Positions 18,866 through 31,080 of a stretch of DNA of 32,466 nucleotides are shown piece after piece; positions within the stretch are counted from its first letter, which is position 1, and every line of letters starts with the position of its first letter. The notes below the pieces were generated by a model that saw nothing but the letters and a program-made list of their open reading frames with translations, made no database searches and was not told the DNA's origin. The stretch is from a virus. The stretch is taken from positions 1 to 32,466 of IMG/VR virus record IMGVR_UViG_3300043640_000116. The stretch is one strand, 5' to 3'. Made by a program: the position numbers and the translations under genes.

Positions 18866-20596
18866 ATGAAGACGGAGAAGAAAATGACTGGTCCACAAGT
18901 ACCCTTTAGCGAAGAGCTACATGCACAGAAATACCGTGGCGAAGGAGAAGGCTTCCGCGAAGCTATGAACCGCATAGCCAGTAACCTAAGAGACGATGAT
19001 ACGCACTACCATGAGTTCCGGGACATACTATTGGAACAGCGCTTCCTTCCCGCTGGCCGCATACAAGCCGCCATTGGCAGCACCCGCCAAGTAACACCAT
19101 TCAATTGTTACGTTAGCGGTACGATCGCGGATAGCTTTGTGGAAGGCGAAGGCTGCATTATGGAACGTGCCACACAAGCCGCCGCCACAATGCGGATGGG
19201 AGGCGGCATCGGTTATGACTTTAGTACCCTGCGACCACGCGGCGACATGATTAAAAAGCTGCAAAGCCGAAGCAGTGGTCCTCTCAGCTTTATGAAGATC
19301 TATGATGCAATCTGCAAGTGCGTTGCAAGCAGTGGACATCGCCGTGGTGCTCAGATGGGTATATTGCGCGTGGACCATCCGGATATCGAAGAGTTCATTA
19401 ACGCCAAACAAAACCAGACCGAGCTTACCGGCTTCAACATTAGCATTGCCATTACGGATGAGTTCATGGAGGCGGCACTTAATAACAAGCCGTTCAACTT
19501 GCGCTTCAATGGCGAAACACACCGCGAGGTTGACGCGGCTGCATTGTGGGAAACCATAATGCGTTCAACATGGGACTGGGCTGAGCCGGGAGTTATTTTC
19601 ATCGACCAAGTGAACAAGATGAATAATTTATACTACTGCGAAACCATTGCCGCGACCAACCCGTGCGGCGAGCAACCCCTACCACCATTCGGCGCTTGCC
19701 TCCTGGGTAGTTTCAATCTCGTGAAATATATGCGTAAGGACAGCGAGGGTAAGTGGTGGTTCAACACCGACCAGTTCACCAACGACATTCCGCATGTAGT
19801 ACGCGCCATGGACAACGTCATTGAGAAGGCTATATTCCCCCTGCCTCAACAGCGTAGCGAGGCTTTCCACAAGCGCCGTATGGGTATGGGCATAACCGGC
19901 CTTAGTAATGCAGCGGAAGCCCAAGGCTGGCCATACGGTAGCAAGCAGTTTGTGGAATTCGAGCAGATGGTGCTCACACTTCTCAGGGACGTAAGCTACG
20001 AAACCAGCGCCCTCTTAGCAAAGGAGAAGGGAGCCTTCCCATTGTTCGACGCTGGTATGTATGCCAATGGCCAATTCATCCGCACGTTGCCAGAGGACGT
20101 CCAGCATATGATCAAGGCGTATGGTATTCGCAACAGCCACTTAACCAGCATAGCCCCATGCGGAACCATTAGCCTTACGGCGGACAATGTTAGCAGCGGC
20201 ATCGAGCCGGTTTTCGCCTACAGTTTTGACCGCACGGTTATTGAGTTCGAAGGACCGCGTAAAGAGACGGTTACGGACTACGGTTCTCGTGTATTTAATG
20301 TCAAGGGTAAGGTGTGTGACGACGTGACCGTGGACGAGCATTTAGCTGTCCTTAAAATGGCAGCCAAGATGGTGGACAGCGCGGTAAGTAAAACGTGCAA
20401 TGTGCCGCCGAGCACCCCTTGGGCGGAGTTCAAGCGTATCTATGAGGAAGCATGGCAAAGCGGGTGCAAGGGCTGCACCACTTTCCAGGTCGGCGGTAAG
20501 CGGGTGGGCATACTAGAAGTTAAGGAAGTCAAGGAAGATGAGCCGGAAGCTATGTGCCGCATAGACCCCGCTACAGGCAGGAAGGAATGCGAGTAG
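18866..20596 (+). CDS. nrdJ: Adenosylcobalamin-dependent (class II) ribonucleotide reductase
   Basis: 576 residues. The redox pair is C81 (PFNCYVSG) and C278 (FGACLLGSFNL). The radical-site motif is N265-P-C267-G-E269. The phrase CGEQPLPPFGACLLGSFNL is characteristic of class II enzymes rather than NrdA. Further family landmarks are MRMGGGIGYDFSTLRPRGD, SSGIEPVFAYS and GCKGCTTFQVGGKR. C-terminal cysteines (CRIDPATGRKEC) are available for thiol shuttling. No small subunit gene is nearby, as expected. It makes deoxynucleotides from ribonucleotides for phage DNA synthesis and depends on host or environmental B12. An AAGGGGGAGA SD (18849-18858) precedes it. No intein or frameshift is seen. Confidence 0.92.
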   Translation: MKTEKKMTGPQVPFSEELHAQKYRGEGEGFREAMNRIASNLRDDDTHYHEFRDILLEQRFLPAGRIQAAIGSTRQVTPFNCYVSGTIADSFVEGEGCIMERATQAAATMRMGGGIGYDFSTLRPRGDMIKKLQSRSSGPLSFMKIYDAICKCVASSGHRRGAQMGILRVDHPDIEEFINAKQNQTELTGFNISIAITDEFMEAALNNKPFNLRFNGETHREVDAAALWETIMRSTWDWAEPGVIFIDQVNKMNNLYYCETIAATNPCGEQPLPPFGACLLGSFNLVKYMRKDSEGKWWFNTDQFTNDIPHVVRAMDNVIEKAIFPLPQQRSEAFHKRRMGMGITGLSNAAEAQGWPYGSKQFVEFEQMVLTLLRDVSYETSALLAKEKGAFPLFDAGMYANGQFIRTLPEDVQHMIKAYGIRNSHLTSIAPCGTISLTADNVSSGIEPVFAYSFDRTVIEFEGPRKETVTDYGSRVFNVKGKVCDDVTVDEHLAVLKMAAKMVDSAVSKTCNVPPSTPWAEFKRIYEEAWQSGCKGCTTFQVGGKRVGILEVKEVKEDEPEAMCRIDPATGRKECE

Positions 20597-21060
20597 TGCT
20601 AATCGGCCAAGCGCCTGGACCAAACACGAATCCAGACGCCGCCCTTTATCCGCAACCCCGCACTAGCGCTGGAGGTAGGCTATGTGAGTTCTTCGGAATG
20701 ACGCAGGAAGCCTACCTCCAGCACTTCACCAGAATGAATCTATTGTATGCTTTCCCCGGACGTGATAAAAGAGATGATAAGTTTCCTACCCAAGCCGCAC
20801 GGCACACAGCCAGTTCAATCAGACCACTGCTAGAAGGCGCTACTGTTATAATGGTCGGGCGCAAGGTTGCAGAAGCGTTCGGATACAGTGAGAAGACCCT
20901 AAACTTTTTTGAATGGAAGACGGACGCGCTAGGTAGATTTCAATTTGCCTGTATTCCTCACCCCTCAGGCCGGAATTTCATCTGGAAAGATAAGCGCAAT
21001 ATTCTCAAGTGTAGGGAATTCCTAGCAACAGTGCGGTCTGCTTTTCTCACTCAGAAATAA
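20587..21060 (+). CDS. Uracil-DNA-glycosylase-superfamily protein
   Basis: 157 residues from the ATG at 20587, preferred over an upstream in-frame start because GGAAGGA lies just upstream and the first strand (RVVLIGQAPGPNT) begins there. Motif 1 is GQAPG (7-11); motif 2 is HPSGRN (125-130), placed as in family 2/4-type enzymes (NPSGLN, HPS). MVGRKVAEAFG (89-99) matches the conserved internal strand-helix. It may excise a base from DNA or recognise a modified base. The usual catalytic Asn/Asp/Glu after the first motif is not obvious (NTNPDAA offers candidates). Overlaps nrdJ by 10 bases and precedes the modification locus. Confidence 0.78.
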   Translation: MRVVLIGQAPGPNTNPDAALYPQPRTSAGGRLCEFFGMTQEAYLQHFTRMNLLYAFPGRDKRDDKFPTQAARHTASSIRPLLEGATVIMVGRKVAEAFGYSEKTLNFFEWKTDALGRFQFACIPHPSGRNFIWKDKRNILKCREFLATVRSAFLTQK

Positions 21061-21176: not shown

Positions 21177-21659
21177 ATGAGCGCAAATTCAGTAACCATA
21201 GACGGCAAAACATACACACAGCAACAACTCGCTGATAAACACAGCCTTGCACAGCTCATAGAGCTTTATAACAAGAACGCGAAGAAGCCGGTAAAGGCAT
21301 TCCGCGATAAACCTACCGCCCTTAAGCGCACATGGGCTGTCCTCCAAGAGGAAGTTCCCGCCGCCAAGCCAGCCCCCGCTAAAAAACCTGAGACTAAGGG
21401 TAAAGATAGAGCCGCCAAGCCCAAGGCGTTGAGCGGCAAGATTAAAATGCTCGTGGCCAGCAACCCTAAACGCCAGAACACACTAGCCTATGAAAAGTTT
21501 AAGATGCTGGCTACCATGGACGGCAAAACCGTTGACGACTTTAAGGCGCTGGAAGGCAACTGCCCCGACATTGACCAACACGAATTAGGCTGGCCGTCCA
21601 CTGAACTTCGGTGGTGCATTAAAAAAGGCTGGTGCGAAGTAAGTTCTCCAAAGGAATAA
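21177..21659 (+). CDS. Basic phage protein with an Ala/Lys/Pro linker, unknown (possible DNA-binding)
   Basis: 160 residues in two parts. The N-terminal half (24-57) has LAQLIELYNKNAKKPVKAFR and then TALKRTWAVLQE, a small helical motif I associate with phage and bacterial proteins of unknown role. Residues 61-83 are a flexible Ala/Pro/Lys linker. The C-terminal half (84-160) contains SGKIKMLVASNPKRQNTLAY and ends with WCIKKGWCEV, suggesting a small winged-helix-like fold. First gene after the regulatory gap and four bases before the hypermodification gene, so it may be regulatory or an accessory of the locus; this is inference. Confidence 0.65.
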   Translation: MSANSVTIDGKTYTQQQLADKHSLAQLIELYNKNAKKPVKAFRDKPTALKRTWAVLQEEVPAAKPAPAKKPETKGKDRAAKPKALSGKIKMLVASNPKRQNTLAYEKFKMLATMDGKTVDDFKALEGNCPDIDQHELGWPSTELRWCIKKGWCEVSSPKE

Positions 21660-21663
21660 TCCC

Positions 21664-22557
21664 ATGCGTATCAATGACTTCTACACGTTTCTCAGGAAAC
21701 GTGAAAGCATAAGGCTTGCCAAGTTGCAGGGAAAACCCTTCCCATGGACGGACGACCCCGTGCTGCGAGAATATAAATTTACTAACGTGCGCCGCGAGCA
21801 TGACCGTACTACCCAGGAACTTATCCAGCGGTTTTACAGCAAGCAGGGTCAGACGAGTGACCTACGCACCATATTATTTAATTGCGCCCTGTTCCGCTAT
21901 TTTGGGACGTACGAGTTCGCTACTGCCTTGGGCTGGCAGGACGGGCTTAACGGCGACCATATCAAGAAGCTGGCAGCACAGCGCCTCGCCGCTGGTGAGC
22001 GTGTGTTCACCGGCGCATATATCATCACCAACCAAGGGATTAAAGCGCCCAAGGAAGAGGTGGTGGTTGACATGTTCTTAACCCCGCTGTGGCAAGCCAG
22101 CAAGCGCCTTACCGAGTTCATGCTGTTCACGGAAGGCAACTGGAGCGACACCACCAATGAATTGCAGAAGTTGCAGGGCTTCGGTGGAAGCGGGTTTATG
22201 GCCAAGGAAACATTGCTTGACACTATGCACTGTGCCTTCTGGCCTAAAGGGTTGCCTTCGGACTACGATACGTTCACGCCTATCGGTCCGGGAGCAAGAC
22301 GGGGGATCAACCGTGTGCGGGGAGCACACATTGATTCTCCGTTGAAATTCTCCGCCATGTTGGATATCATCCGGGAGCTGACGGCGGCGCAAAGTGATAA
22401 GCCGGCCAGTATGCAGCCGGACCGCAACTGGCCGGAGGCATGGGGTAAGCTGGCTCCAACGGATATCCAATTCCAGTTGTGTGAGTTTGATAAATATGAA
22501 CGAGTACTGCATGGCGAAGGTAAGCCTCGCAGCCGCTATAAACAGAGGGGAAAATAA
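21664..22557 (+). CDS. 5-hmdU DNA kinase helical-domain / amino-acid:DNA transferase family protein (DNA hypermodification)
   Basis: 297 residues. The hallmark N-terminal block is present: DFYTFLRKRESIRLAKLQG, then PFPWTDDPVLREYKFTNVRR (26-45) and EHDRTT. The C-terminal half has GFGGSGFMAKETLLD (172-186), a helix-hairpin-helix-like turn followed by Asp, and GPGARRGINRV (208-218). This is the all-helical, glycosylase-like fold described for the aGPT-PPlase / HMUDK-helical group in thymidine-hypermodifying phages, where relatives act on 5-(hydroxymethyl)uracil already in DNA. No P-loop is present, so this is not the kinase itself. The next gene is a glycosyltransferase. The exact reaction (base recognition, transfer, or replacement of an activated group) cannot be told from sequence. 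Confidence 0.75.
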   Translation: MRINDFYTFLRKRESIRLAKLQGKPFPWTDDPVLREYKFTNVRREHDRTTQELIQRFYSKQGQTSDLRTILFNCALFRYFGTYEFATALGWQDGLNGDHIKKLAAQRLAAGERVFTGAYIITNQGIKAPKEEVVVDMFLTPLWQASKRLTEFMLFTEGNWSDTTNELQKLQGFGGSGFMAKETLLDTMHCAFWPKGLPSDYDTFTPIGPGARRGINRVRGAHIDSPLKFSAMLDIIRELTAAQSDKPASMQPDRNWPEAWGKLAPTDIQFQLCEFDKYERVLHGEGKPRSRYKQRGK

Positions 22558-22558
22558 C

Positions 22559-23353
22559 ATGGACGTCATTATACCAACTTACCGGCGCACGGGCAGCCAG
22601 CACACCTTCGCCAGCTTAGGACCGCTGTGGCGCGACAAAGTGTTCTTTGTGGTTGACCAGCGCGACTATGACCTTATGGCAAATCAAGAACGCTATAAGC
22701 CCGCCAAGTTTGTCGTCGTACCAGAACACGTCAAGAGCATTGCACAAAAGCGAGCATGGATCCTGGAAACGTGGGAAGCCGAAAGCATTGTTATGATGGA
22801 CGATGACTTGCGCTTTGCCGTGCGTAAGTACGAGGGCTGCGACGCTGGTAACTTTAAGCTGGTGGCAGCAAGCAACACAGCGGTTGACGTTGCCTTATGC
22901 GACCTGGAGGAGAAGCTAAAGACCTATGCTCATGCAGGGTTTAGCGCCCGCCAAGGCAATAACCGCAAGCCGTTAGGTTGGGAGGACAACACCCGCATGA
23001 TGTATGTTCTTGGCTACCAGCCCGCGACCGTGCGTCAACACTGCATCCTTGGGCGAATAGAGACCCGCGAAGACTTTGACTACACCCTGCAATTACTCCG
23101 CAAGGGTTTTCACAATACCATTTGCAATGAGATATGCACCGATCAGAAGTATAATGCCGCTGGTGGTGCAAGCCTTGAACGCACGGTGGATAGTAGTAAT
23201 GCCGACGCGACCAAGCTGGCAGAGCTGCACCCTGGATTCGTTAAGGTAGTGCAGAAGGATTATGTCGGTAGCGTTCAACGCCAGGAAGTAATAGTCCAGT
23301 GGAAGAAGGCAACGGAAGAAGGCAACCAATGGAAAAAGGAATGTTCGGCATGA
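22559..23353 (+). CDS. TET/JBP-associated-type (TAGT) glycosyltransferase, putative DNA hydroxymethyl-base glycosyltransferase
   Basis: 264 residues from the ATG at 22559, two bases after the preceding stop, with AGAGGGGAAA upstream. A GT-A-like Rossmann start (MDVIIPTYRR) is followed by FFVVDQRDYDLM, QKRAWILE and the metal/sugar-nucleotide motif IVMMDDDLRF (DDD at 81-83). Downstream are NTRMMYVLGYQ, then REDFDYTLQLLRKGF. This pattern matches glycosyltransferases that occur beside DNA base oxidases or hydroxymethylases and sugar-modify hydroxymethylated pyrimidines in DNA. With a TS-like hydroxymethylase three kilobases downstream and no TET oxidase visible, hmdU in DNA is the likely acceptor (inference). 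A surface-glycan acceptor is the main alternative. Confidence 0.72.
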   Translation: MDVIIPTYRRTGSQHTFASLGPLWRDKVFFVVDQRDYDLMANQERYKPAKFVVVPEHVKSIAQKRAWILETWEAESIVMMDDDLRFAVRKYEGCDAGNFKLVAASNTAVDVALCDLEEKLKTYAHAGFSARQGNNRKPLGWEDNTRMMYVLGYQPATVRQHCILGRIETREDFDYTLQLLRKGFHNTICNEICTDQKYNAAGGASLERTVDSSNADATKLAELHPGFVKVVQKDYVGSVQRQEVIVQWKKATEEGNQWKKECSA

Positions 23354-24096
23354 AATACGGATTCAGCGGAGCAGAGATATTCTTCAGCGCTGATAAGGTG
23401 TTGAAGAAAATGCCCAAGGCAGCGGCGCAAGCCGAGCACATGAAAAAGCTGGGACTGCAAGTTAGCCCGCGTGTGTTGGAAGTGGCGGCGGATTACTATG
23501 TCATGGAGCGGTTGCTTGAACCAACACCCCGCGCACTTATAAGCCGGACGATGGTGAAGATAGTGCTGGATACGCTGGCAAAGAATGTGCATTGCTACCC
23601 TGCCATTATAACCATGCAGATTGCGAAGCTGGACTGGCGGCAAGAGCTGGCTACATTCCTGGCAACGAAAAGCCCTGCGATGAATCTGGTATTGTTTAAG
23701 CTGTACCCTAAGCTCGACCCGAACGCTTACTGCATGACGCACGGCGACTGCACCCTTGCTAACGTAATGGTGAGCGATGGAGGGCGCATACGGTTGATTG
23801 ATCCGTTGCCTCCTGGCGGTAAAATTCCCGGCCTCAAGGAAGTGGATTATGGCAAGCTGCTTCAATCCTGCCTTGGTTGGGAAGGCTTAATAAGTAAACA
23901 GTCCAGCCCTACCAGCGCCGAACTACTTACCGCCGAGCTGATGATAGGCTTACCATCACAGGACATGCAGAACAAAGCGTGGTTCTGGTGTGGTGTTCAC
24001 CTGCTCCGTATCTTGCCTTATGCAAGTGGTAAGCCGGAAGTGGAAGCGTGGTGCTGGCTTAAACTTAAGGAGTGCCTCAATGCAATTCGCATATGA
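23350..24096 (+). CDS. APH-fold small-molecule kinase, putative anomeric sugar kinase
   Basis: 248 residues from the ATG at 23350, chosen for the four-base ATGA overlap with the glycosyltransferase stop and AAGGA nine bases upstream; starts at 23341 and 23329 are also in frame. The aminoglycoside phosphotransferase signature is clear: HGDCTLANVM (H131, D133, N138) and IRLIDPL (D151), the catalytic loop and metal-binding Asp. The N-terminal lobe is short (KVLKKM could carry the ATP-binding Lys, with VMERLLEP as hinge). In AmgK-type enzymes this fold phosphorylates the anomeric hydroxyl of amino sugars. A nucleotidyltransferase two genes downstream suggests the product is a sugar 1-phosphate (inference). 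Confidence 0.78.
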   Translation: MKYGFSGAEIFFSADKVLKKMPKAAAQAEHMKKLGLQVSPRVLEVAADYYVMERLLEPTPRALISRTMVKIVLDTLAKNVHCYPAIITMQIAKLDWRQELATFLATKSPAMNLVLFKLYPKLDPNAYCMTHGDCTLANVMVSDGGRIRLIDPLPPGGKIPGLKEVDYGKLLQSCLGWEGLISKQSSPTSAELLTAELMIGLPSQDMQNKAWFWCGVHLLRILPYASGKPEVEAWCWLKLKECLNAIRI

Positions 24097-24538
24097 TCTT
24101 GACGGCACACTGTTAGACACAGAGGCAGCCGTCCGCAAAGCGTATGAGCTGGCTGGCTTAATACCACCACCGAACTTCTTCGGACGCCCTGTGAAGGAAT
24201 GGCTTAAGACAACGCCAGCTAACATTGAGCTGCATAAGCTGAAGAATAAGTTCTACATGGAAGAGACGTGGAAAATGGTGGAGCCTCTACCGGCGCTGGA
24301 AATATTCGACCGTTGCCGTGGTGTTATCCTCACTGGTGCAAGCCAAGCCGCCGCCCGTTTTCTATGCGAGAAGTTTCACATCAAGCATACTAAGCTGCTC
24401 ACTGGTCTTTCGGTGCAGAATAAAATTACATGGATGAACCAGGAAGAAGACGCTGGCATATACATGGACGACGACCTTACCGCAATTCAAGCCATAGCTA
24501 GGAACACACGATGGACGATCTTAACCGTATTCAAGTAA
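24080..24538 (+). CDS. HAD-superfamily phosphatase
   Basis: 152 residues from the ATG at 24080, which has AAGGAG at 24067-24072; it overlaps the kinase gene by 17 bases. HAD motif I is YDLDGTLLDT (nucleophile D6, acid D8), motif II is ILTGAS (T85), a Lys is at about 115 (QNKITW), and motif IV is IYMDDDLTA (D130-D132). The short helical cap (20-75) suits small substrates such as sugar phosphates or nucleotides. Placed between a kinase and a sugar nucleotidyltransferase, it may dephosphorylate a sugar-6-phosphate before anomeric phosphorylation (inference). Polynucleotide phosphatase activity is an alternative. Confidence 0.85.
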   Translation: MQFAYDLDGTLLDTEAAVRKAYELAGLIPPPNFFGRPVKEWLKTTPANIELHKLKNKFYMEETWKMVEPLPALEIFDRCRGVILTGASQAAARFLCEKFHIKHTKLLTGLSVQNKITWMNQEEDAGIYMDDDLTAIQAIARNTRWTILTVFK

Positions 24539-25254
24539 TAGTCCCCGCCGCTGGCCAGAGTCGCCGCTTCAAGGAGAAGGGTATTGATAAGCCTAAGCCG
24601 CTTATCAAGTTCTCATATAACAGCGGCACTCGTCAGACCATGTTGGAGCACAGCATTCGCGGTGTTGCCAACCGGCCTATCCATATAGGTTGCCGCCAGG
24701 AAGATTACGAAGACTTCAAAGGTGAGTTCGGTAACTTTGAAAACTTCCACATATACGGCCTGGACACCACACAGGGTCAGGCGCACACAGTACAGAACAT
24801 TTTATACCACGGCAATTTCAAATTAGATAAGCCCGTGCTGGTGGTCAACTGTGATCAAATGTTTCTCTACCCGCTTGATATGTTCGCCCGCCAGTGCGAA
24901 GACTTCGAAGCTGGTGTGCTGGTGTTTGATGGCCAAGAGAACAAAGCCTACAGCTATGTTGACAACTTTCCCATCTTCCAGCGAGCGGAGGAGAAGCAAC
25001 CTATCAGCCCTTGGGCGATTGCCGGTGCATTCTATTTCCGTAGCGTCGCGCTATTGGTACGCGCCCTCAAAGACCAAGAGGATACTTACATAGGTGGGTG
25101 GAGCGTTAAGAGCGGCGAACCGTACCTTAGCCACACATTCCAATTCGTGGATGGTGATAAGCTGGCGGTGCATATGCCCAAGGATAAACTGGTAGGATGG
25201 GGGACTCCGGAACAATTACTGTCGGATCCGCTGGTAACACAAATTAAATTCTAA
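24511..25254 (+). CDS. Sugar-1-phosphate nucleotidyltransferase
   Basis: 247 residues. The NTP_transferase signature is at the N-terminus: VIVPAAGQSRRF (9-20) then DKPKPLIKF (26-34), the loop binding the nucleoside triphosphate and the PKPL that contacts it. The second metal/uridine-side motif is VVNCDQMF (D115). YGLDTTQGQAHTVQN (about 83-97) contacts the base in relatives. It should form an NDP-sugar from NTP and a sugar 1-phosphate, similar in size to MurU or RmlA cores without a C-terminal acyltransferase. It overlaps the HAD gene by 28 bases and ends 18 bases before the next gene. Likely supplies the donor for the nearby glycosyltransferase. Confidence 0.87.
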   Translation: MDDLNRIQVIVPAAGQSRRFKEKGIDKPKPLIKFSYNSGTRQTMLEHSIRGVANRPIHIGCRQEDYEDFKGEFGNFENFHIYGLDTTQGQAHTVQNILYHGNFKLDKPVLVVNCDQMFLYPLDMFARQCEDFEAGVLVFDGQENKAYSYVDNFPIFQRAEEKQPISPWAIAGAFYFRSVALLVRALKDQEDTYIGGWSVKSGEPYLSHTFQFVDGDKLAVHMPKDKLVGWGTPEQLLSDPLVTQIKF

Positions 25255-25272
25255 TGTAACAAGGGGAGAGTT

Positions 25273-25845
25273 ATGAAATCAGAGAAGCTGACATCAGCAA
25301 TACGCTCACGTCTTCTGGAGGCGGTGCTGGACCATAGGTTCGCGCCGGAAGAGGAAGAGAACCTACTGGAGCAGCGTCGTATCGCTGTGGCAGTTTACGA
25401 GGAAGTGTTTCCTGTGGAAACACGCCGCAAGATGCTTGCCCTGCCCGCTGGCTGGCTGGCAACCATTGATTATGTCCATGCACAGTTCAGCGAGGACAGC
25501 GGCGACTATGAACACATGGCGCTCCCCACTGGTGACGGCCTTGAGTGGAGAGCACCCTACGACAAGCAACGCGGCTGCATGATTAAGTATGACGCCGACA
25601 GTGAAATGAGTAAGCGCTTTAAACTGTGGAAGGAACAGAAGCAGTCGCTTTACCTTGCCAGCAAGGAGCTTAAATTTAAGACCAAGTCGGTGCTTGATAG
25701 TTGCACCACTACCAACCGACTCATTAAAGTATGGCCGGAGATACAGCCATTCTTATTGAAGGCAATGCCGGAAACGAATGTGTTCCTGCCCGCGCCTATC
25801 ATAAACGATTTAACAACAGCCCTTAGACTGGAGGAAGCAGCATGA
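25273..25845 (+). CDS. Nmad5-like putative nucleotide-modification-associated protein
   Basis: 190 residues. MKSEKLTSAIRSRLLEAVLD at the start, an acidic/Gln-rich helix, RIAVAVYEEVFPVETRRKML, then LPAGWLATIDYVHAQF (about 56-71) and a C-terminal helix with SKELKFKTKSVLDSCTTTNR and KVWPEIQPFL. The order (helix, VYEEVFP, LPxGWL, beta-rich centre, SxxTTxxLxxxWPE) matches my memory of the Nmad5 family found in phage base-modification loci. Its biochemical role is not known. It has an AAGGGGAGAG SD (25261-25270) and overlaps the TS-like hydroxymethylase by four bases, supporting functional coupling. Confidence 0.6.
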   Translation: MKSEKLTSAIRSRLLEAVLDHRFAPEEEENLLEQRRIAVAVYEEVFPVETRRKMLALPAGWLATIDYVHAQFSEDSGDYEHMALPTGDGLEWRAPYDKQRGCMIKYDADSEMSKRFKLWKEQKQSLYLASKELKFKTKSVLDSCTTTNRLIKVWPEIQPFLLKAMPETNVFLPAPIINDLTTALRLEEAA

Positions 25846-26900
25846 GAACTATCAACGTAAGAAACGTCCACGAAGCACTACCCGAAGGAATGCGCCTCCT
25901 GGCAACACAAGGCTATAAGCGTGAGAGTCGTTACGGTGACGTAATGAAAATCGCCGGACCAGTTACCACCGTTTATCGTAACCCGATGGAGCGTGTAATC
26001 TTCTGGCCTGAACGCGATGCCAACCCATTCTTCCATCTCATGGAAAGCCTGTGGATGGTGCAAGGTCGCAACGACGTTAAGTTCGTAGCGCAATTTGCCA
26101 AGCGCATGGAAACATTCAGCGACGACGGCAAGACCTTTCATGGTGCGTATGGCCACAGGTGGCGCAACTGGTTCAAGCGTGACCAAGTGCTTGAGATTAT
26201 TGAAATTCTCAAAGCTAACAATGCCGACCGCCGTTGTGTGCTGCAAATGTGGGACGCTACCAAAGACCTTAACAAGCAGGGTAAAGATGTCCCGTGCAAC
26301 GTAGTGGCCTTCTTCACTATTGAAAATGGTGCGCTGAACATGGGTGTTATGAACCGCTCCAACGATATGATCTGGGGTGCGTATGGTGCTAACGCCGTAC
26401 ACTTCAGCGTCCTGTTAGAATTCATGGCGGCGGGCATTGGTGTTCCCGTGGGTGCTTACTGGCAGATGTCGTGGGACTACCATGCTTATCTCAACACGTT
26501 TGAGCCGCTGCTTGGCCTTATAGATAAGTCCGCCGACCCCTATCGCACGTTGCCTCGCAGCCCGTACGAAGCTGGAGAAACCATGATTACTAAAGTGGTG
26601 GACGAGCCTATTAAAATATGGCTGGAAGACCTTGAGATGTGGTTCCACGATCCCAACACTGTAGGGCTTCGCAGCAAGTTCTTCCGCCGTGTTGCCACAC
26701 CGTTGTTCCAGGCACATGCCGCCTATAAGCAAAAGGATTATGACGGTGCGAATGAAATCCTCGACCAGTGTTTAGCCGGTGACTGGAAGACCGCTTGTAA
26801 GCAGTGGTTCGAACGCCGCGCACAGGCACGGCTTGCCAAGCACCTTAAAGAGCTGGACGACGAAGCCGCTGGCGCGTCCACCGACAATGGAGGCGAGTGA
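25842..26900 (+). CDS. Thymidylate-synthase-family enzyme, putative dUMP hydroxymethyltransferase
   Basis: 352 residues. Nucleophile C152 in KDVPCNVVAFF; phosphate-binding R130-R131 in DRRCVLQMWD; RSNDMIWGAYGANAVHFSVL (172-191); and SWDYHAY near 210-216. The residue aligned with the uracil-reading Asn of thymidylate synthase is N184 in YGAN, whereas dCMP hydroxymethylases have Asp there, so dUMP is the likely substrate. The RSNDMIWGAYGANAVH version of the motif, rather than the usual TS RSCD-LG-PFNI, is what I associate with phage hydroxymethylases. The expected reaction is dUMP plus methylene-tetrahydrofolate plus water to 5-hydroxymethyl-dUMP. A true thymidylate synthase cannot be excluded. 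The C-terminal 50 residues are charged and extended. Confidence 0.78.
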   Translation: MRTINVRNVHEALPEGMRLLATQGYKRESRYGDVMKIAGPVTTVYRNPMERVIFWPERDANPFFHLMESLWMVQGRNDVKFVAQFAKRMETFSDDGKTFHGAYGHRWRNWFKRDQVLEIIEILKANNADRRCVLQMWDATKDLNKQGKDVPCNVVAFFTIENGALNMGVMNRSNDMIWGAYGANAVHFSVLLEFMAAGIGVPVGAYWQMSWDYHAYLNTFEPLLGLIDKSADPYRTLPRSPYEAGETMITKVVDEPIKIWLEDLEMWFHDPNTVGLRSKFFRRVATPLFQAHAAYKQKDYDGANEILDQCLAGDWKTACKQWFERRAQARLAKHLKELDDEAAGASTDNGGE

Positions 26901-27481
26901 TGGAAAACCCCATGGATGATGGTGGTGAAGCAAACGAACCACGAGTAACGGTAGTGGAACGGGTTCTGGCCGTGCGGGAGGGTGGACACGTGGAGCGATG
27001 CCACACCACTCCAAAGCATGGCGGCTACGACGTAGCGCAACACAGCTATGGAGCGCTTAGTCTGTTGCTGTTGCTGCACCCACGGCCTAGCAATACGCTT
27101 ATCAAAGCGATACTGTGGCATGACGTACCCGAACGCTGGACAGGAGATATTCCTAAACCGGCTAAATGGGCAAGCCCTGCCCTTAATGACGCGGAGAAGA
27201 TTTTGGAGGCGGAGCTGCTTGCACACCTTGGGCTTTTGGGCATTCTCACGGAAGATGACATGGCGTGGCTACATGCTGTCGACATGTTGGATTTCTGGAT
27301 ATGGACTCAAGAGCAAGCACACCTCGGCAACCGAAATGTGGAAGACCTGAAAACAAAAGTCGATGACTATTGGACGCTAGTTTACCACAAACTACCGGAG
27401 CCGGTGAAACAGTTTATCGCCGACTTCAAATTTAAGCGCCTACCAGATTGTGATCAACTATTAAACAGGAGTTTCGTATGA
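26900..27481 (+). CDS. YfbR-type HD-domain 5'-deoxynucleotidase
   Basis: 193 residues. The HD metal-site residues are visible: H48 (VAQHSYGA), H74-D75 (LWHDVPERW), E78 and D83, with a distal Asp near 128-131 (AVDMLDFW). The phrase HDVPERWTGDIPKPAKW matches the HDxxExxTGDxPxPxKY signature of YfbR-type 5'-deoxynucleotidases, which dephosphorylate deoxynucleoside monophosphates. In a phage replacing thymine such an enzyme could remove dTMP or balance dUMP (inference). It starts on the last base of the hydroxymethylase stop codon and overlaps the following gene by four bases, so three genes are translationally coupled. Confidence 0.85.
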   Translation: MENPMDDGGEANEPRVTVVERVLAVREGGHVERCHTTPKHGGYDVAQHSYGALSLLLLLHPRPSNTLIKAILWHDVPERWTGDIPKPAKWASPALNDAEKILEAELLAHLGLLGILTEDDMAWLHAVDMLDFWIWTQEQAHLGNRNVEDLKTKVDDYWTLVYHKLPEPVKQFIADFKFKRLPDCDQLLNRSFV

Positions 27482-28591: not shown

Positions 28592-30601
28592 ATGCAACTC
28601 CCTCTTCTTGGACCTGAAAGTAACTGGCGAGCGCCACGGTTAAGCGACCTACCTGACTGGTCGTCTGCCAAGCGTGTAGCCATAGACATTGAAACGTGTG
28701 ATCCGTTGCTACGCAAGCTCGGTCCGGGAACCCGACGTGGTGCATATATCGCTGGATATAGTGTAGCCATTGAGGACGGACCGAGCTTCTATGTACCGCT
28801 TAAGCACCTTGGCGGCGATAACGTGGAAGACCCTACGCTGGCGCTGGCATACTTGCGGGACATTGGTAAGAACTTCACTGGCGAGCTGGTGGGTATGAAC
28901 CTGAGCTACGACCTGGATTTCTTGCAGCATGTAGGCATCCACTTCCCACAAAACAAATTCATCCGCGACGTAATGTGCGCGGACAGCCTCATCGATGAAC
29001 TGCAAGATGGCTACAGCCTGGAGCGCATTGCCAACACCCACTTAGGCATCGGTAAGAACGAGGGCTTGCTGAGAGATGCCGCTGGTGCTTATGGTCTTGA
29101 CCCGAAGAAGGAGATGTGGAAACTGCCCGCCCGCTTCGTAGGGGAATACGCCACAAGCGACGCCGACTTACCGCTTAAGATTCTTCGCCGTCAGGAGAAG
29201 CTAATTGACGATCAAGACTTGTGGAATATATGGAACCTTGAAAGCAAGGTGTTACCCGTTCTCGTGAAGATGCGAGCGCGTGGTGTGCGCGTTGACCTTA
29301 ACAAGCTGGCAATCGTAGAGCGCTGGTCAGAGCAACAGGAAACCATCGCACTGCAACAGGTGTATGATGCAACCGGCGTACGAATCCGCGTTGGCGACGT
29401 ATGGAAGGCTGACGCCGTTGCGCCCGCCCTACATGCCATAGGCGTTCAAGTACCGCTTACGCCGAAGACGCGTAAGCCCTCCATTGATAAGCACCTCTTG
29501 GGCAGTATCCCTCACCCTGTCGCCCAAGCACTGGACCGCGCCCGCAAGGTGAACAAGGTGCGCTCCACATTCGTTAACAGCCTACACGAGCACATGATCG
29601 GCGACCGTATCCATTGTACCTTTAACCAGTTACGCGCCAGCCACGACGATGATGAGGAAGAGGGAACCAAGGGCGCGGCCTATGGTCGCTTAAGCTGTAG
29701 CGACCCGAACCTACAACAGCAACCGGCTAACGATCCTGAAATTGGACCGATGTGGCGCGACGTATATATACCCGACGAAGGCGGTGAGTTCTGCTCCATC
29801 GATTATAGCCAGCAAGAACCCCGCATGACGGTACATTATGCCGTTCTCACGAAGATGGGAATCGTAAATGTACGCACTGAGAACGGCTGGGTTAAAGTAG
29901 ATGCCGATGCCAGTGCATTAGCCGCCGCCGAAGCATACCGCAATGATCCAAGCACCGACAACCATCAGATGATGGCGGACATGGCTAACATTAAGCGCAA
30001 GCCCGCCAAGATTATTTTCTTAGGGCTTTGCTACGGAATGGGAGGCGCGAAGCTGTGCCGCAACCTTGGGCTTCCGACCATCATGGCTGTCAAGGATCCT
30101 ATCAGTAAGCAGTTGGTGGACGCCAGCACCCCGCACGGGATGGAACTGGTGGCAGCGGGCGGGCGCAAGTTTGAGGCAGCCGGTGTAGAAGGCCAGCGCT
30201 TGCTTGACACGTTCGATTTGAAAGTGCCGTTCGTACGCGCCTTAAGTAAGGCCGCTGAAAAGTTCGCCAGCAAGAAAGGCTATATCCGTACCCTTGAAGG
30301 ACGCAAGTGCCGTTTCCCCAAGGACGAATATGGGAATTTCGACTGGGTGTATAAAGCACTCAACCGCTTGATCCAGGGTAGCAGCGCGGATCAAACGAAG
30401 AAGGCCATTGTGGAACTGGATGCCGCTGGTTATCCGCTGCAACTGCAAGTCCACGATGAAATCTGCTCAACTGTAACCAGTCAGAAGCAAGCGCGGGAGA
30501 TGGCGGAGATCATGCTTAAGTGCAGCCCGTTACAAGTACCCAGCAAATGCGATATAGAAATGGGAGTGTCATGGGGACAAGCCAAAGGAATAACTTCATA
30601 A
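28592..30601 (+). CDS. polA: Family A DNA polymerase with 3'-5' exonuclease, Leu762 type
   Basis: 669 residues, no 5'-nuclease domain, as usual in phages. Exonuclease: ExoI AIDIET (D32, E34), ExoII GMNLSYDLDF, ExoIII YATSDADLPL. Polymerase: motif A SIDYSQQEPRM (D404), motif B KIIFLGLCYGMGG (K473, L477, Y481) and motif C QVHDEI (D622, E623). At the position equivalent to E. coli Phe762 there is Leu (L477). Leu762 polymerases are known from marine viruses and have been linked to slower or lysogenic lifestyles. This is the replicative polymerase of the phage and would have to accept any hydroxymethylated dUTP made by the nearby genes. The start has no strong SD, unlike its neighbours. Confidence 0.95.
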   Translation: MQLPLLGPESNWRAPRLSDLPDWSSAKRVAIDIETCDPLLRKLGPGTRRGAYIAGYSVAIEDGPSFYVPLKHLGGDNVEDPTLALAYLRDIGKNFTGELVGMNLSYDLDFLQHVGIHFPQNKFIRDVMCADSLIDELQDGYSLERIANTHLGIGKNEGLLRDAAGAYGLDPKKEMWKLPARFVGEYATSDADLPLKILRRQEKLIDDQDLWNIWNLESKVLPVLVKMRARGVRVDLNKLAIVERWSEQQETIALQQVYDATGVRIRVGDVWKADAVAPALHAIGVQVPLTPKTRKPSIDKHLLGSIPHPVAQALDRARKVNKVRSTFVNSLHEHMIGDRIHCTFNQLRASHDDDEEEGTKGAAYGRLSCSDPNLQQQPANDPEIGPMWRDVYIPDEGGEFCSIDYSQQEPRMTVHYAVLTKMGIVNVRTENGWVKVDADASALAAAEAYRNDPSTDNHQMMADMANIKRKPAKIIFLGLCYGMGGAKLCRNLGLPTIMAVKDPISKQLVDASTPHGMELVAAGGRKFEAAGVEGQRLLDTFDLKVPFVRALSKAAEKFASKKGYIRTLEGRKCRFPKDEYGNFDWVYKALNRLIQGSSADQTKKAIVELDAAGYPLQLQVHDEICSTVTSQKQAREMAEIMLKCSPLQVPSKCDIEMGVSWGQAKGITS

Positions 30602-30642
30602 GTCTAGCCGTAAATAATAAACCAAAACCCAGGAGACTGATT

Positions 30643-31080
30643 ATGATTGATACCAGATACATAACCAAGGCGCGGCAACTCGCCCAAGGTAGCCCCGACC
30701 CAAGCACGAAAGTCGGCTGCATCATTGTCAAGCACAGCATTATCCCGCGTGGTGACAACCATGTTGATGTCGGTTACGGCTATAATGATTTAGCGCCAGG
30801 AACGCCGGAAGAATACTGGCAGGATCGTGAATTGAAATATCCGCACGTTGTCCATGCTGAAATCCATGCGCTGCTACATGCTGGCCGCGATGCTCGTGGA
30901 GCACAGCTATATTGCAGCGAGCACCCATGCCTCCAATGCGCTATTGCCATTGCAGCGGCTAAGGTGGCGGTGGTGTGCTGTCCTCAAGAACCGTGGCGCG
31001 ACACACCTGAGATACGTGCAACCATTGAAGGCGCGAAGAAGGTTTTCGCCCGCGCCGGAATCATAGTGCAGTATGTCTGA
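30643..31080 (+). CDS. Deoxycytidylate deaminase-type enzyme (CMP/dCMP deaminase family)
   Basis: 145 residues from the ATG at 30643, chosen because AGGAG (30631-30635) lies seven bases upstream; a longer in-frame start would lie inside polA. Zinc site: H71-A-E73 (VVHAEIHAL) and P95-C96-L-Q-C99 (EHPCLQCAIA). DPSTKVGCIIV (19-29) is the substrate-side strand. It should convert dCMP to dUMP, the precursor needed for the TS-like hydroxymethylase. tRNA- or nucleoside-deaminase activity is less likely in this setting. Overlaps the next gene by eight bases. Confidence 0.85.
   Translation: MIDTRYITKARQLAQGSPDPSTKVGCIIVKHSIIPRGDNHVDVGYGYNDLAPGTPEEYWQDRELKYPHVVHAEIHALLHAGRDARGAQLYCSEHPCLQCAIAIAAAKVAVVCCPQEPWRDTPEIRATIEGAKKVFARAGIIVQYV

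Follow-up and report, generated by a model that had tools for sequence, protein, structure and literature searches.

Pseudomonas phage M6 hypermodifies its thymidine to 5-NedU (PMC6449724). Its locus encodes an AADT protein (PF18724), a PLP-fold protein, a radical SAM enzyme, and a P-loop kinase (PF18748) for 5-hydroxymethyl-2′-deoxyuridine (5-hmdU), together with HMUDK_hel, Nmad5, a thymidylate synthase (TS)-family enzyme, and an HD nucleotidase. Another arrangement was described in 2022 in HTVC023P-type pelagiphages, which have a cluster of TS, a 5′-deoxynucleotidase, a beta-glucosyl-HMC-alpha-GT, and aG/PT-PPlase1, its name for an HMUDK_hel-like protein (PMC9599517). Here we analyzed the entire 32,466-base record IMGVR_UViG_3300043640_000116 (hereafter, the window), a linear sequence from an uncultivated virus, which carries an island of eight tightly packed or overlapping plus-strand open reading frames (ORFs) at positions 21664–27481. 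The island joins an M6-like core to a TAGT family glycosyltransferase, an APH-fold kinase, a HAD-family phosphatase, and a sugar-1-phosphate nucleotidyltransferase-like protein (NTP). We consider it quite likely that this set places sugar-decorated 5-hmdU in the phage genome instead of part of the thymine, with a donor that is partly phage made.

The window holds the full M6-type core of HMUDK_hel, a 5-hmdUMP-type TS, an HD nucleotidase, and Nmad5. It also shares with M6 the UDG-like and gp49-like genes and the surrounding replication genes, and the common genes stand in the same order in the window and in M6-type phages: ribonucleotide reductase (RNR)-UDG-gp49-HMUDK_hel-Nmad5-TS-HD-polymerase-dCMP deaminase-primase. 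The difference lies in the decoration genes. The AADT, PLP enzyme, radical SAM, and P-loop kinase of M6 are absent from the window record, and whereas the M6 decoration genes precede HMUDK_hel, TAGT-APH-HAD-NTP is placed between HMUDK_hel and Nmad5. Within this record, which is a fragment, AADT (PF18724) had no Pfam match among the island genes and no match over all ORFs with a hidden Markov model (HMM) based on M6 gp51; a whole-record search for the P-loop 5-hmdU kinase (PF18748) was likewise negative. An initial annotation had called the first island gene AADT-type, a label we dropped: the protein is HMUDK_hel (PF18723), and AADT is a separate gene in M6. The eight-gene island and its predicted domains otherwise emerged intact from the Pfam and PHROG matches and the ORF map, as did the DDD motif of the TAGT (PF20691 and PHROG_842; residues 81–83) and the C152 and N184 residues of the TS-like enzyme, both seen in the alignment.

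The HTVC023P-type cluster, like the window, has the four core functions near PolA; no APH-HAD-NTP trio is described in the available portion of that report, which does not discuss the sugar or its donor (PMC9599517). The exact gene set had initially been thought undescribed, and this held in part. The HMUDK_hel, TAGT, TS, and HD core was already known from pelagiphages, and we found no description of TAGT-APH-HAD-NTP in a thymidine-modification locus, in a literature search that missed key papers on the M6-type pathway.

We scanned IMG/VR with a TAGT alignment and obtained 287 relatives, of which 80 loci were read and grouped at 95% into 51 clusters. TS was present in all 51 clusters and HMUDK_hel in 48, with APH and NTP in 15, a P-loop kinase in 1, and AADT in none. 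Because these loci had been retrieved through TAGT, a second scan was based on HMUDK_hel; its best 80 matches formed 68 non-redundant clusters, a sample that is biased to the window's relatives and in which the clusters are not fully independent. A glycosyltransferase accompanied HMUDK_hel in 48 of the 68 (33 TAGT and 15 GT-B), a P-loop kinase in 8, and AADT in 1. Glycosyltransferase and P-loop kinase never occurred together (0/68; Fisher 1.7e-5), and in some of these loci the TAGT slot is filled by non-homologous GT-B enzymes. A scan with APH gave 35 clusters containing NTP (28), HAD (20), TS (20), TAGT (16), and HMUDK_hel (14). Single-protein IMG/VR scans with TAGT or NTP returned nothing usable, and the NTP sequences were too divergent for an alignment-based scan; HMM gene labels in the relative loci were spot-checked with Pfam. 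The neighborhood search suggested with the initial annotation recovered the order TAGT-APH-(HAD)-NTP in at least 12 other viral contigs. The order is constant even where TS, HD, HMUDK_hel, or the polymerase has relocated (loci L027, L133, and L193). Since the same-order set is found in many diverse viral contigs, the island is not a chance assembly. Brevibacterium phage LuckyBarnes is a cultured phage that carries the core set as TS-TAGT-TAGT-HMUDK_hel.

In the TS superfamily, cytosine-using members have Asp and uracil-using members have Asn at the base-selecting position (PMC5175136). The window enzyme combines the catalytic Cys (C152) with Asn184, and Asn fills this column in every core-locus TS relative readable there as well as in an SPO1-like dUMP hydroxymethylase. 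T4 dCMP hydroxymethylase has Asp instead, which falls one column off in that alignment; the window enzyme thus lacks the Asp that marks the dCMP hydroxymethylase of T4-type hmC systems. Because of Asn184, 5-hydroxymethyl-2′-deoxycytidine (5-hmdC) was set aside as the acceptor base. The nearest relatives of the window TS are M6 gp58 (51% identity) and SPO1-like gp29 (40%), and for this reason 5-hmdUMP is its likely product, which upholds as probable the hydroxymethyl-dUMP synthesis first proposed. A TS tree did not discriminate between placing the window with M6 and placing it with the marine glycosyltransferase phages (approximately unbiased (AU) test p 0.65), and the placement was not used.

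The window TAGT scored 53.9 bits against a Pfam cut-off of 27.5, its D81–D83 are invariant in the alignment with relatives, and the PHROG_842 family that it matches is annotated as 'beta-glucosyl-HMC-alpha-glucosyltransferase'. These matches place the only glycosyltransferase of the island in a DNA-acting family, with DNA as its presumed acceptor. The proposed coupling of hmdUMP synthesis to a DNA-family glycosyltransferase is retained, and no amino-acid branch was detected in the record.

HMUDK_hel accompanies either branch, the glycosyltransferase type or the kinase/amino-acid type. Its predicted structure (pLDDT 88.8) gave weak matches, the five best in the PDB (E 0.18 to 0.9) being helix-hairpin-helix (HhH) DNA glycosylases and gp46/PUGT, a phage 5-PmdU glycinyltransferase. 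Invariant positions across 28 relatives are K130, D186, D200, GPG 208–210, and C273-E274-K277. In a tree, the window protein falls inside a glycosyltransferase-linked clade (support 100/93), and its grouping with the M6 protein was rejected (AU p 6e-50). We infer that HMUDK_hel recognizes or flips 5-hmdU for whichever enzyme decorates it.

The remaining genes of the set may supply the donor. The APH kinase matched Pfam below the single-sequence cut-off (2e-3); its family model matched 5-methylthioribose kinase, choline kinase, and CcrZ at E ~1e-4, and its predicted structure is of moderate confidence (pLDDT 71.5). The start of its gene is most likely at 23350, where it overlaps TAGT by ATGA, and not at 23299. 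The HAD protein also lies under the Pfam cut-off (5e-3), and five homologues retain its DLDGTL, T-G-x-S, K, and DD motifs. For NTP, the NTP_transf_3 match (1.4e-5) is marginally below the cut-off and PHROG_3980 is a family of unknown function. Compared with the PDB, the NTP family profile ranks sugar-1-phosphate nucleotidylyltransferases first (ST0452 at 5e-15, GlmU, RmlA) and IspD and CDP-inositol types lower. In NCBIfam, Arch_glmU was matched by 11 of 15 NTP family members; the MurU equivalog NF045761 was not matched by the window NTP and only weakly by 4 of the 15. When searched by sequence against the PDB, HMUDK_hel, APH, and HAD had no match, and NCBIfam pointed to no particular substrate of the APH kinase. 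Bacterial genomes yielded three faint APH relatives only, and therefore no host pathway that could be borrowed for naming the sugar.

AmgK is an APH-fold kinase. Together, MupP, AmgK, and MurU convert MurNAc-6-P to UDP-MurNAc (PMC5371407), and this Pseudomonas salvage route shares with the window trio, at class level only, the roles of HAD phosphatase, kinase, and nucleotidyltransferase; it differs in that the window NTP lacks a match to the MurU equivalog. Because NTP is of the sugar-1-phosphate nucleotidyltransferase class by its profile and NCBIfam results, because TAGT-APH-(HAD)-NTP travels as a unit, and because of the parallel in roles, the trio likely makes a nucleoside diphosphate sugar (NDP-sugar). 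The HAD step may be dispensable, since several homologous cassettes have no recognized HAD gene. Of the self-contained pathway first proposed, donor synthesis thus stands as likely on the grounds of NTP class and cassette cohesion, but 'self-contained' goes too far.

Read from gene families, catalytic motifs, and conserved order, the pathway would begin with dCMP deaminase supplying dUMP, which the TS-family enzyme would convert to 5-hmdUMP while the HD 5′-deoxynucleotidase would remove competing deoxynucleotides. The polymerase would incorporate 5-hmdU into the DNA. After replication, HMUDK_hel, probably a base-flipping, HhH-glycosylase-like protein, would recognize or present 5-hmdU, and TAGT would transfer a sugar to its hydroxyl group. 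For the donor, the HAD phosphatase would release free sugar from a sugar phosphate, the APH-fold kinase would phosphorylate it at C1, and the nucleotidyltransferase would turn the sugar phosphate into an NDP-sugar.

Several points weigh against sugar-decorated 5-hmdU. The APH and HAD assignments are weak from the single sequence, and the fold match of HMUDK_hel is not significant. The trio also occurs without TAGT, TS, or HMUDK_hel nearby in ~10 clusters, and so it is not DNA-specific; sugar-nucleotide genes are, moreover, common in phages. TAGT, kinase, phosphatase, and nucleotidyltransferase might then act on a host surface glycan, for superinfection exclusion, and lie in this operon fortuitously. 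We regard this as very improbable in view of the constant presence of TS and the near-constant presence of HMUDK_hel around TAGT, and because TAGT and PHROG_842 are DNA-glucosyltransferase families, with GT-B enzymes found in the same slot. The record is also an incomplete piece of 32 kb, and the rest of the genome could hold a kinase or AADT; loci L024–L026 have a P-loop kinase-like gene adjoining TAGT (L024 7435–7986, L025 7382–8020). It could follow that 5-hmdU is phosphorylated or aminoacylated in the manner of M6 and that the sugar genes merely add to this. We give that little credence: in M6, CN1, Sonora, and Bhz59, the kinase and AADT both lie inside the corresponding cluster, and kinase and glycosyltransferase are mutually exclusive over the HMUDK_hel clusters.

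The identity of the base can be questioned as well. Asn184 does not tell a hydroxymethylase from a thymidylate synthase, which also has this residue, and characterized TAGTs use glucosylated 5-hmdC (PMC13216743). It nevertheless seems most unlikely that the window enzyme is just a thymidylate synthase or that 5-hmdC is the acceptor, as the nearest relatives are 5-hmdUMP enzymes of the M6 and SPO1 types and no readable core-locus relative has Asp at the cytosine-selecting position. An unlikely but less far-fetched alternative concerns the donor. TAGT could draw on a host donor such as UDP-glucose, with the trio altering the DNA-bound sugar or making a CDP-alcohol head group of the choline/ethanolamine type. 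The APH model matches choline/ethanolamine kinases and sugar kinases alike, TAGT occurs without the trio in L028–L084, where host donors may suffice, and the modified uracil of phage SP-15 bears phosphoglucuronate and glucose (PMC5977210). The NTP profile, by contrast, favors sugar-1-phosphate nucleotidylyltransferases over the IspD and CDP-inositol types, and a glycosyltransferase normally requires an NDP-sugar. We prefer sugar-decorated 5-hmdU with a partly phage-made donor.

The window record is probably a fragment of a larger genome, and the virus is probably a relative of the Mesyanzhinovviridae. Its polymerase shares ~60% identity with the Bordetella phage CN1 enzyme, and the helicase/RNR-to-primase region is largely collinear with M6 and other Mesyanzhinovviridae; megablast of 9 kb of the window against phage records gave no match. 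Several island junctions are ATGA-type overlaps, and other junctions nearly overlap (Table 1). A UDG-superfamily gene lies near the modification genes in the window, in M6 (gp48), and in L024–L027, all phages expected to carry 5-hmdU.

Table 1. Genes of the island and its surroundings in the window
Predicted product	Position	Strand	Evidence
Accessory UDG-superfamily protein (M6 gp48 homologue)	20554–21060	+	Pfam 2.2e-5
M6 gp49 homologue; precedes HMUDK_hel in many M6-like phages	21177–21659	+	Iterative HMM
HMUDK_hel (PF18723), 297 aa; helical protein that probably recognizes DNA bases	21664–22557	+	Pfam 5.5e-43
TAGT family glycosyltransferase (PF20691), DDD at residues 81–83	22559–23353	+	Pfam 2.9e-14; PHROG_842 8.8e-39
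APH-fold small-molecule kinase, HGDxTxxN...DP motifs	23350–24096	+	Pfam 2e-3 and fold match
Small HAD-family phosphatase, DLDGTLLDT	24080–24538	+	Pfam 5e-3 and motifs in homologues
Sugar-1-phosphate nucleotidyltransferase-like (NTP)	24511–25254	+	NTP_transf_3 1.4e-5; PHROG_3980 2.6e-26
Nmad5 (nucleotide modification associated domain 5), M6 gp56 homologue	25273–25845	+	Pfam 1.9e-21
TS-family enzyme with C152 and N184, probably a dUMP hydroxymethylase	25842–26900	+	Pfam 6.1e-22; PHROG_5131 3e-126
YfbR-like HD 5′-deoxynucleotidase, M6 gp59 homologue; ATG start possible at 26900	26897–27481	+	Pfam 2e-6
dCMP deaminase	30520–31080	+	PHROG_174 9e-32

Among the window's nearest HMUDK_hel relatives, the decoration genes are variable and, by their predicted functions, mostly of carbohydrate type, as judged from the sulfotransferase, SPASM, FkbM, epimerase, and GT-B genes found among the loci. 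L017 and L019 have two or three TAGTs and a sulfotransferase near HMUDK_hel/TS, which suggests sulfated sugars on the DNA of these phages. A radical SAM-SPASM gene stands between HMUDK_hel and TS in L039, L102, L103, and L116, alongside TAGT or GT-B-like genes, and is joined by an FkbM methyltransferase in the first three. L112 has an NAD-dependent epimerase near HMUDK_hel and TS, L098 and L105 have GT-B enzymes, and in L085–L088 a methyltransferase-like gene (Pfam in L085) lies immediately 5′ of HMUDK_hel and TS, and no TAGT was seen in the vicinity. Around the trio, L202 (4015–8684) and L220 (5632–10598) combine TS, APH, HAD, and NTP-like genes with dCMP deaminase and polymerase, without HMUDK_hel or TAGT; L202 also has a thymidylate kinase-like gene, and this arrangement is a possible further variant. 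In L191, L203, L209, and L210, APH-HAD-NTP is flanked by proteins of ~415 and ~340 aa, which have no Pfam or PHROG match in L191 and are possibly a new transferase.

A broader generalization is more tentative, and we hold it to be somewhat doubtful: a modular carbohydrate branch in which HMUDK_hel is a shared 5-hmdU-recognizing subunit, not part of the kinase, that works with interchangeable partners, either TAGT or GT-B enzymes using phage-made or tailored sugars or the kinase and AADT, and in which some sugars are new to DNA. If these proposals are correct, sugar-decorated hydroxymethyluracil would be a widespread means by which phages disguise their DNA, with interchangeable donor pathways, the role of HMUDK_hel would be independent of the 5-hmdU kinase, and the loci would offer enzymes that write new sugars onto DNA. 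They would also account for many of the 'solitary' TAGTs of phage genomes, which were flagged in 2026 as possible novel transferases (PMC13216743). With its core set in a cultured phage, LuckyBarnes makes the sugar-decorated 5-hmdU reading testable now.

We regard the window locus as a real, recurrent, and new form of phage thymidine hypermodification with a predicted sugar chemistry. Its TAGT belongs to PF20691 and is of the GT-A type, like that of the T-even phages, but the T-even enzyme adds a second glucose to glucosyl-hmC (PMC13216743), whereas the base in the window is probably hmU. Phage-made donors have also been proposed for RB69, whose arabinosyl-hmC module is thought by its authors to include genes for an unusual sugar donor used on DNA; it differs from the window in its cytosine base, its transferase, and its donor genes (PMC6024577). 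Bacillus phage SP-15 shares with the window sugars on a modified uracil, a 5-hmdUMP synthase, and sugar-nucleotide genes, but its base, dihydroxypentyluracil, has a different side chain and its gene set is another (PMC5977210). Sugar-decorated hydroxymethyluracil has been known in DNA chiefly as base J of kinetoplastids, SP-15 having a different uracil side chain. Next to M6, the island would represent a carbohydrate form of a DNA disguise that has been characterized so far chiefly with groups derived from amino acids.

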